Assembly (NCBI GenBank): GCA_027055635.1
Contig: JALUMZ010000111.1
Location: 1 to 38,226 of the forward strand
Source: Campylobacteraceae bacterium
Lineage (GTDB): Bacteria; Campylobacterota; Campylobacteria; Campylobacterales; Sulfurospirillaceae
DNA: 38,226 nucleotides
Direction of reading: 5' to 3'
Position 1 is the stretch's first letter; each line of letters starts with the position of its first letter. A program made the position numbers and the translations under genes. A model generated the notes under the pieces. The model saw nothing but the letters and a program-made list of their open reading frames with translations, searched no databases and had not been told where the DNA came from. Of the stretch, positions 6,981 through 27,534 are shown one piece after another.

Positions 6981-7035
6981 TAAGTACCTAAGTTTTTTTT
7001 GCTATTAATTGGTGTTACTTCTGGTTAGGTACTTA
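6981..7035. repeat. 11-bp inverted repeat upstream of moaC
   Basis: TAAGTACCTAA (6981-6991) and TTAGGTACTTA (7025-7035) are perfect reverse complements separated by 33 bases. One arm includes the stop codon of the LUD gene and the other abuts the moaC -10 box. It may terminate the LUD transcript or form a pair of operator half-sites for moaC. No T run follows on the minus strand. Confidence 0.5.
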
Positions 7036-7629
7036 AAATCCTAACTCTTCATTAACTATGATTATGTGGGTTCTGTCTTTTTCATCACCATTTATATATG
7101 TGAATTTATTTGCTATATTTTCAAGGTTGTATTTAGGTTTTTTGCCCATTTTGCTTGCAATTTTATTCATTCTTTCTATGTTTTTTACCGCCGCTATTTT
7201 CATAATCCGTTCAAATCCATCTTTTAGGGTTGGAACAATTTTATTCTTACCGACAACGAGTAAAACTTTTTTAGGGCCAAAGATTTGGGCTGCTACTCTG
7301 TTGCCACTTCCGTCTGCGTTGACTAGCTCTCCATCTTTAGTGATAGCATTGCATCCTGTAACATATAGATCTGAAAGAAGACCTTCTCTTCTTCTTTTTA
7401 TGTTTTCATCCATACTTATTCCACTTTCATATTGATTAAAAACTTTGAGATTTTTTTGCTCTAGTATATAATCGAGCAGTCCAATTTGAGCAATAGTAGT
7501 CGAACCACCAAATCCAACCGAGCCAACACTCTTTAAAAACCTTTTTGCAAGAGTCAGAGCTTCACTTTTATCTTCTACAAAATAGACGCTAAAACCGTTT
7601 TTTGCTAAATTTTCTTTAAGTCTGTCCAT
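7033..7629 (-). CDS. LUD-domain (LutC/YkgG, DUF162) protein
   Basis: This 198-residue single-domain protein has the LUD core: GFGGSTT near residue 30, VTGCNAITKDGELVNADGSGNR in the middle, and VLLVVGKNKIVP. LUD proteins are linked to lactate utilisation through LutABC complexes, but many stand-alone members have unknown roles. No lutA or lutB neighbour is present. The start at 7629 (MDRLKE) is preferred over 7659 because AAGGAT precedes it at good spacing. It is probably transcribed alone. Confidence 0.85.
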   Translation of the reverse strand: MDRLKENLAKNGFSVYFVEDKSEALTLAKRFLKSVGSVGFGGSTTIAQIGLLDYILEQKNLKVFNQYESGISMDENIKRRREGLLSDLYVTGCNAITKDGELVNADGSGNRVAAQIFGPKKVLLVVGKNKIVPTLKDGFERIMKIAAVKNIERMNKIASKMGKKPKYNLENIANKFTYINGDEKDRTHIIIVNEELGF

Positions 7630-7649
7630 GATATATATCCTTTTATCAT

Positions 7650-7658: not shown

Positions 7659-7684
7659 AACATCTTATAAAACTTTTGTTATCA

Positions 7685-7861
7685 TTTCAAAACCAAGGTC
7701 AAACGGTAGATTTTTATCAAATCATTTCAAAAGGACTCAGACCAACGGGAGGATTTGTCCTTTGATTTTGTTTTGGGTTGTTTTTCAAAACCAAGGTCAA
7801 ATGGTAGATTTTTATCAAATCATTTCAAAAGGACTCAGACCAACGGGAGGATTTGTCCTTT
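7685..7861. repeat. 79-bp direct repeat, two copies 98 bp apart
   Basis: Copy 1 spans 7685-7763 and copy 2 spans 7783-7861. They differ at one position (c7704 versus t7802). Each starts TTTCAAAACCAAGGTCAAA and ends ...GGATTTGTCCTTT. After that point copy 1 diverges while copy 2 continues into the right arm of a long hairpin. The block fills the gap between the LUD gene (-) and the aminotransferase gene (+). No ORF with plausible coding content crosses it. Confidence 0.9.
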
Positions 7862-7882
7862 TGAAATGATTTGATAAAAATC
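7807..7882. repeat. Perfect 28-bp inverted repeat with 20-base loop
   Basis: The arms 7807-7834 and 7855-7882 are exact reverse complements (GATTTTTATCAAATC... / ...GATTTGATAAAAATC). They enclose the loop TCAGACCAACGGGAGGATTT. The hairpin ends 40 bases before the aminotransferase start, so it would lie in that gene's leader if transcription begins upstream. There is no T run after it, so a simple intrinsic terminator is unlikely. It could be a miniature palindromic element. Confidence 0.88.
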
Positions 7883-7922
7883 GTAACAAGGATAAAAAAG
7901 TAAAAGTAAAAAAGGATTGATT

Positions 7923-9041
7923 ATGCGTTGTTCAAAGATGAGCTCATTTATAGTTATGGATATAGTAAGAGATGCTCTAAAATACGAAGATGCTGTACAT
8001 TTTGAAGTGGGACAACCAGATCTGCCACCATCTCCAAAAGTCAAAGAAGCTCTTCATAGTGCTATAGATGATGATAGATTTTCTTATACCCAAAGTCTAG
8101 GATTGTTAGAATTGAGAGAGAAGATAGCCTATCAATATAAAAAAACTTATAATTTAGATATAGATCCAAAGAGGATATTTTTGACTCCCGGAACGAGTGG
8201 GGCATTTTTGATAGCATACTCCTTGACGCTAAAAAATTCTGCAAGACTTGGGCTTAGCGATCCATCATATCCTTGTTATAAAAATTTTGCTTATATGATG
8301 GATATAGAGCCTCTTTTTATGCCTATCGACAAGAGAGATAATTTTGAGCTACATGTAGATGACTTGGTGGGAAAAAGACTAGGTGCCTTACAAATCTCAT
8401 CCCCATCAAATCCGACAGGAAATATATATGAGAGAGAAAACTTAGGGGATTTGGTTGAGTATTGTGATAGAAACGATATAGCTTTTATATCAGATGAACT
8501 CTACCATGGTTTGACTTATGAAGGTGAAGCAAGTTGTGCTTTGGAGTTTAGTGACAAGGCTTATATAGTAAATGGTTTTTCAAAATACTATTGTGTTCCG
8601 GGGAATAGATTGGGTTGGATAATAGTTCCAAAACATAAACTTAAACAAGCAGAGATATTGAGTCAAAATCTTTTTATATCTGCTCCGACACTTAGCCAAT
8701 ATGGTGCATTGGCTGCATTTGATGATGAGTATCAAGCTGGCGTAAAAGAGGAGTTTAAAAAAAGAAGAGACTATCTTTATGGTGAATTGTCACAAATATT
8801 TGAGATAGACGCTGCTCCACAAGGTGCTTTTTATCTATGGGCAAATATCTCAAAATACAGTGATGACAGCTTCGCATTTGCAAAAGAATTATTAGAAAAT
8901 ATACATATTGCTGCGACTCCGGGTGTGGATTTTGGTAAAAATGGTACAAACAAGTATATCCGATTCGCATACACTAGAAATATAGAGCATCTAAGTGAAG
9001 GAGTGCGCAGGATAAAGAAATACTTGGGCATTACCTTGTGA
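7923..9041 (+). CDS. Pyridoxal-phosphate aminotransferase, class I/II
   Basis: This 372-residue fold-type I aminotransferase has EVGQPDLPPSPKV at the N terminus, TPGTSGAFL for the cofactor phosphate region, SPSNPTGN, SDELYHGLTY, and the Schiff-base lysine in NGFSKYYCVPGNRLGW. The C-terminal IRFAYTRN supplies the arginine that binds substrate carboxylate. The amino-acid specificity cannot be told from sequence. ATG 7923 is used, with AAGGA upstream, rather than TTG 7917. The last 11 bases overlap the convergent pldA gene. Its upstream region carries the long stem-loop described separately. Confidence 0.88.
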   Translation: MRCSKMSSFIVMDIVRDALKYEDAVHFEVGQPDLPPSPKVKEALHSAIDDDRFSYTQSLGLLELREKIAYQYKKTYNLDIDPKRIFLTPGTSGAFLIAYSLTLKNSARLGLSDPSYPCYKNFAYMMDIEPLFMPIDKRDNFELHVDDLVGKRLGALQISSPSNPTGNIYERENLGDLVEYCDRNDIAFISDELYHGLTYEGEASCALEFSDKAYIVNGFSKYYCVPGNRLGWIIVPKHKLKQAEILSQNLFISAPTLSQYGALAAFDDEYQAGVKEEFKKRRDYLYGELSQIFEIDAAPQGAFYLWANISKYSDDSFAFAKELLENIHIAATPGVDFGKNGTNKYIRFAYTRNIEHLSEGVRRIKKYLGITL

Positions 9042-27394: not shown

Positions 27395-27525
27395 TACACA
27401 ACTCCTTTAATTTTTTTATTAACTGACCTTACGCACTAAACACATATCTGGGCAAAAAGAGAAAGTGTCATATGCGAGGCAGGTTTTGAAAGCCTAGCCA
27501 AAGCTAAGGTGAGAAAATCTCAGTT
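27395..27525 (-). ncRNA. Structured leader candidate of the nitrate/sulfonate-type ABC operon
   Basis: Read on the minus strand from a TGGTATAAT promoter, the roughly 125-base leader can form an outer stem ACCUUAGC / GCGUAAGGU (27503-27510 with 27426-27434, one bulge) enclosing two hairpins. One is GGCUAGG / CCUGCC (27478-27499, one bulge), and the other is CGCAUAU / AUAUGUG (27441-27476) with a G.U pair that forms only in minus-strand RNA. A small GAGA/UCUC hairpin lies at the 5' end. The layout resembles a three-way junction, but I cannot match it to a known riboswitch. It also shares CTGACCTTACGCACT with the element at 14919, so it may be a repeat instead. Confidence 0.4.
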
Positions 27526-27534
27526 ATTATACCA
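27526..27534 (-). promoter_or_regulatory. Extended -10 promoter of the ABC transporter operon
   Basis: On the minus strand the sequence TGGTATAAT is a complete TGn-TATAAT extended -10. A start site about seven bases downstream would give a leader of about 125 bases before the binding-protein ATG at 27394. Confidence 0.65.

Follow-up and report, generated by a model that had tools for sequence, protein, structure and literature searches.

The window, a stretch of 38,226 nucleotides, carries a 79-nt block in two direct copies between a LUD-domain gene and a divergent class I/II aminotransferase gene. The second copy continues into a perfect hairpin. The features of the locus are as follows.

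7033–7632, minus strand: LUD-domain gene (Pfam PF02589), divergent, on the other side of the block
7680–7685, plus strand: inferred −10 box TATCAT of the aminotransferase promoter, from comparison with seven congeners that have the empty site
7685–7763, plus strand: copy 1 of the unit, with flank, left arm and core, without right arm (repeat search, sequence)
7709–7736, plus strand: left arm of copy 1, complementary also to the right arm of copy 2 (inverted-repeat search)
7736–7759, plus strand: conserved core of copy 1 (pattern searches)
7783–7861, plus strand: copy 2 of the 79-nt repeat, one mismatch to copy 1 (repeat search)
7807–7834, plus strand: left arm of the complete hairpin, 28 nt (repeat search, fold)
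7834–7857, plus strand: conserved core of copy 2, CTCAGACCAACGGGAGGATTTGTC, the family signature (pattern searches)
7855–7882, plus strand: right arm of the complete hairpin, 28 nt (repeat search, fold)
7883–7901, plus strand: right flank GTAACAAGGATAAAAAAGT, common to a second subfamily copy at the hisF locus (L002)
7923–9041, plus strand: class I/II aminotransferase gene (Pfam PF00155)

The two 79-nt copies start 98 bp apart and are separated by 19 bp, and their sole mismatch is C7704 versus T7802. Copy 2 forms the perfect 28-bp inverted repeat (7807–7834/7855–7882) around a 20-nt loop, far above chance: about 4e-10 such hairpins are expected in the window by composition, and the fold has a z of −7.4. 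Copy 1 has the same left arm and loop, and its right side ends after GTCCTTT. The duplication with its spacing and single difference, the stem with its loop and the right arm missing from copy 1 had been described in a first-pass annotation and were confirmed. Its view that the structure is not an intrinsic terminator also held, the stem being A+T-rich and 28 bp long with no T run after 7882. The left arm of copy 1 is also complementary to the right arm of copy 2, at a distance of 118 nt, and in the predicted fold of the tandem pair copy 2 is nested inside this pairing.

The same tandem pair is present in a congener, G008 (locus L036), whose flanks are about 88% identical. Both window copies carry the arm sequence AAATCATTTC and both G008 copies carry AAACTGTTTC, so that AAATCATTTC replaces AAACTGTTTC with both arms changed together; the arms of the hisF copy read AAACTGTTTT. 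The tandem predates the window species, since it is common to G008 and partly to G004 (public MAG contig JALVAU010000254.1, ‘Campylobacteraceae bacterium’). The recent duplication suggested at first is therefore not supported. Because G008 has the same tandem and the arms are alike within each genome, the near-identity of the two window copies looks like concerted evolution. Divergent pairs of elements, mostly about 90–120 bp apart, were also seen in several genera (L113, L133, L112, G175:C149, G195:C163), a spacing similar to that of tandem pairs (about 97 bp). Another family of dispersed repeats, TAACTGACCTTACGCACT... / ...GTGCGTAAGGTCAGTTA, occurs at 27420–27530 of the window, in the left flank of L065 and within copy 1 at L041. 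The matches listed number more than 25 in congener G003 and several in G000, the one in the window among them; in G004 a member of this other family interrupts the first hairpin copy.

Further copies came to light when the region was compared by BLAST with its own genome, and a pattern search located the 24-nt core CTCAGACCnnnGGGAGGATTTGyC nine times. A reversed control pattern had no match, either in that genome or in the samples of the bacterial family and the order. Twelve of 44 genomes of the bacterial family carry the core, the richest congener having 35 (40 with a looser pattern). Of the 399 genomes in an even sample of the order Campylobacterales, 35 carry it, representing 13 of 87 genera and including single-contig genomes of another family; most of the genomes compared are fragmented MAGs. 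A phylum-level sample, all genomes of which belonged to the same order, gave nothing further afield, and searches of phages, plasmids and viral contigs gave no matches. Rfam had no match in the window at the gathering score, permissive hits lying far below the cut-offs with none credible, and searches of the literature for small repeats in these bacteria brought up no description of this hairpin. The first-pass annotation had proposed a miniature palindromic mobile element and a search of the window's own and related genomes; the copies found there, and the existence of empty sites, bear the proposal out. The family appears to be undescribed: very small mobile DNA hairpins, dispersed among Campylobacterales genomes and usually located directly behind a gene promoter.

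The anatomy was drawn from 171 distinct copies. The core is near-invariant in all of them apart from the triplet nnn (most commonly AAC, AAA, GAA, GCA or GTA) and Y. It is enclosed by GAGG/CCTC or a compensated version, and the resulting apical module, GAGG-CUC-AGA-CC-NNN-GG-GAG-GAUUUG-CCUC, is about 30 nt long and hardly varies. An asymmetric internal loop often comes next (CGT/TAAG in the window's genus), and beyond it lies an outer stem of about 18–36 bp. The outer arms are unrelated between copies, with a median identity of 38%, and yet 98% of outer pairs are Watson–Crick or G·U, compared with 43% when right arms were dealt to other copies. In the whole family no conserved sequence was found outside the stem, and across genera the conserved part is the loop. 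Members of the window subfamily have short flanks in common, AGGTnAA..TAG preceding the element and a CG(A/T)TAA-like stretch following it, and in the window's genus the arms share the weak consensus TAGACTTCTTTTAAAACTATTTC. A related hairpin was noted at L249 (G000:C268, positions 154–235), upstream of a gapA-like gene whose promoter carries the regular element in G003. It is a perfect 33-bp hairpin with the same outer sequence TAGACTTCTTGCA and a wholly different loop TAACTCATAGATAAGC, and represents either a sister family or a loop replacement.

The arm finder scores all mismatches alike, so the ratio of G·U to A·C mismatches is an unbiased test of which strand folds. The loop strand gave 100:28 (p about 1e-10). 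The ratio was 53:9 among copies antisense to both neighbouring genes and 20:9 among those sense to both. The loop-bearing strand, to judge from these pairs, shows the signs of folding under selection. As the bias is independent of gene orientation, the constraint would act on the strand of the element itself, whether as RNA or as single-stranded DNA, rather than on the host mRNA. Function as an mRNA leader was rejected as the source of the wobble bias, the antisense copies being the most biased.

The genes on either side of the 171 copies are both on the minus strand in 65 cases, divergent in 46, both on the plus strand in 34 and convergent in 12. Empty orthologous sites at 13 loci identify the element as an insertion. 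At 11 of these 13 the insertion coincides with a −10 box or follows it closely, at no more than about 10 nt, a proportion that overstates the preference because most of the loci were picked for the closeness of the element upstream of a gene. Seven of 10 congeners lack the element at the window locus and have a short intergenic region there, in which the −10 box of the aminotransferase gene, TATTAT (TATCAT at 7680–7685 here), is followed directly by the ribosome site. The insertion starts a few bases downstream of TATCAT, at a point not exactly delimited, and the window element would thus sit in the 5′ UTR of the aminotransferase gene. The empty sites of L051 read TATAATATCCTT and continue into the ribosome site; where the site is occupied, the element directly follows CTT. 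Similar arrangements were seen at L060, L074, L014, L067, L073, L080, L100 and L061, and plausibly at L071; L055 and L077 had no −10 box at the insertion. A larger set comprises 95 copies that precede a start codon by less than 50 bp, on one side only. Of these, 39 have a −10-like hexamer at the promoter-side edge, whereas windows of equal size further upstream predict about 17 (p about 2e-7). Targeting of open promoters is compatible with this −10 distribution, and so is selection for the one interval that tolerates an insertion, as selection against insertions that destroy a promoter or ribosome site could give the same pattern. The empty-site alignments revealed no clear direct target duplication; at some edges host bases are duplicated in inverted orientation. 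At L217 and L220 (G000:C15 and G004:C229), at the promoter where G003 has a full element, short remnants TATAGACTTTT..AAAAGGTCTA without the core were found, looking like decayed or excised copies.

The inverted duplications bear on the origin of the stem. At L067 the host −10 sequence TATAATTTG, present in the empty orthologs, makes up the outer left arm, and its inverted copy CAAATTATA ends the right arm. At L100 ATAATAT comes back as ATATTAT, and at L071 four bases are likewise repeated inverted. Arms can therefore grow into host DNA by inverted duplication. Only the outer arm ends, at some loci, are demonstrably host-derived; an origin of the arms wholly from the target at insertion was rejected in view of their weak consensus within the window's genus. 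The loop, too, changes orientation. It is reversed in place, with matching arms and flanks, in the orthologous pairs L014/L087 and L033/L035, with L016/L033 also listed, and other orthologous pairs in opposite orientation include L044/L128, L024/L097, L175/L185, L180/L188 and L110/L176. A further copy, in G000 (L004, about 1450–1600, compared with L022, 1200–1600), is chimeric. In G004, a close relative, the place is taken by two copies in inverted orientation, separated by about 250 bp; the G000 copy consists of the left half of one and, inverted, the left half of the other, the result of a hairpin-mediated deletion.

Template switching is reported to homogenise the arms of inverted repeats and to invert the spacer (PMC8604942), and to create and maintain hairpins (PMC8794818). 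Both marks of a quasipalindrome, arm homogenisation and spacer inversion, were found here at orthologous loci (L014/L087, L016/L033, L033/L035 and others), and we infer template switching as the mechanism in this family. Faster evolution of the arms than of neutral sequence was rejected: identity is 0.74 between orthologous arms and 0.67 between intergenic flanks, so that the arms diverge about as the flanks do or slightly more slowly. Since the arms evolve no faster than the flanks, template switching is compatible with the data without being proven against compensatory selection.

Taken together, the window feature is probably a tandem of a truncated and a complete copy of a non-autonomous mobile Campylobacterales hairpin, shaped by template switching and strand recognition and with an incidental effect on the host. 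The spread, the insertion, the strand-specific folding, the in-place inversion and the host derivation of some arm ends are the parts of this reading that the sequences themselves support. The element inserts into intergenic DNA in either orientation, mostly at or just downstream of the −10 box in the compared loci; such a placement leaves the promoter intact and is predicted to make the hairpin the first part of the 5′ UTR. Template switching during replication would copy one arm of the hairpin onto the other, lengthen the arms by inverted duplication of host DNA and flip the loop in place, which would account for arms that are free but paired and for the frequent inversions. The loop strand, recognised as RNA or single-stranded DNA by a putative factor that spreads the element, would be selected to fold. 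Any effect on the host gene would be incidental, the added structure in the 5′ UTR possibly altering the stability of the mRNA or its translation. Transposition itself was not observed, and the copies inspected had no mobilising enzyme next to them. The Y1/RAYT transposase (PF01797, the only family tested) was rejected as mobiliser because it does not co-occur with the element: it was not found in the carriers G000 and G004 (both MAGs about 91–92% complete), and G009 has one such transposase and no element. RAYT-like Y1 transposases of about 220–290 aa are present in 39 of the 44 genomes of the bacterial family.

A minimal form of the element, in which only the folded apical module has heritable identity, is conceivable though unlikely. 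A putative enzyme would recognise the loop strand as RNA or single-stranded DNA and insert the element into the melted DNA of open promoters, and host replication would remake the stem by inverted copying of flanking promoter DNA.

A classic MITE or REP, whose transposase acts on terminal inverted repeats while the arms merely drift, appears distinctly improbable. It would agree with a short, dispersed, palindromic and patchy element that has empty sites, and with the arm consensus TAGACTTCTTTTAAAACTATTTC of the window's genus. It does not accommodate conservation of the loop rather than the ends across genera, ends that are unrelated between copies yet still paired, inverted duplications at some edges in place of a clear direct target duplication, or the uncorrelated presence of the Y1 transposase.

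Already disfavoured, and very doubtful in our view, is a cis-regulatory RNA, a conserved leader stem-loop with a dedicated protein or ligand and a regulon including the aminotransferase gene. A conserved apical loop on a covarying stem, a location between −10 box and start codon and the forward-strand wobble bias are what such a leader would display; the orientation of the copies is nevertheless mixed and often antisense (65 minus/minus against 34 plus/plus), the bias tracks the element's own strand rather than the mRNA strand, and orthologous loci flip orientation. The first-pass annotation had considered a leader controlling the aminotransferase gene. The position in the probable 5′ UTR agrees with this, but a conserved leader is ruled out, as 7 of 10 congeners are empty at the locus and the same element precedes host genes that look unrelated.

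A small RNA had also been suggested in the first-pass annotation. A dispersed small RNA gene, each copy being transcribed from its own strand, acting in trans and spread by duplication, would explain the conserved loop and strand-specific folding independent of host gene orientation, but is highly improbable for a family that as a whole has no conserved promoter, terminator or sequence beyond the stem, no Rfam match at the gathering score and, because the arms are unrelated between copies, no common target.

Small bacterial repeats are normally recognised by their conserved ends. Repeat finders and Rfam would miss this family because the loop is kept while the paired ends change. Its copies offer well over 100 natural replicates for hairpin maintenance by template switching versus compensatory selection, and a route to long structured 5′ UTRs at gene start sites in many Campylobacterales lineages.

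Among known systems, MITEs are matched by a short, dispersed, non-coding element (171 copies) with empty sites at 13 loci. The Correia/NEMIS MITEs of Neisseria (PMC2649163, PMC2229807) are likewise short, non-autonomous and dispersed, with inverted repeats, and are intergenic and beside promoters; as for them, co-transcription as an RNA hairpin is expected, the Neisseria hairpin being an RNase III substrate (PMC2649163, PMC2229807). MITEs have conserved terminal repeats and direct target duplications, whereas here the terminal inverted repeats are not conserved (median arm identity 38%), the loop is conserved and flips, and the arms are free but paired. REP/REPIN elements with RAYT (Y1) transposases (PMC3116915) are also small extragenic palindromes with many copies per genome and a strand-specific hairpin, but in REPs stem and loop are conserved as a unit, whereas the present stem is not conserved. 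Y1 transposase genes, moreover, occur in genomes both with and without the hairpin. In behaviour the family resembles MITEs and REPs, but it fails their defining test of conserved ends or stem. The ends of IS200/IS605 elements are recognised as single-stranded hairpins. Strand-specific recognition of this kind would explain the wobble bias, although the family differs from IS200/IS605 in having no associated gene and in its variable perfect stems of 20–36 bp, which are not typical of that group. Template-switched quasipalindromes (PMC8604942, PMC8794818) share the arm homogenisation, the extension of arms by inverted duplication and the spacer inversion. These are known as sporadic mutations at resident sequences, whereas here the process has apparently been repeated on a mobile family with one fixed loop.
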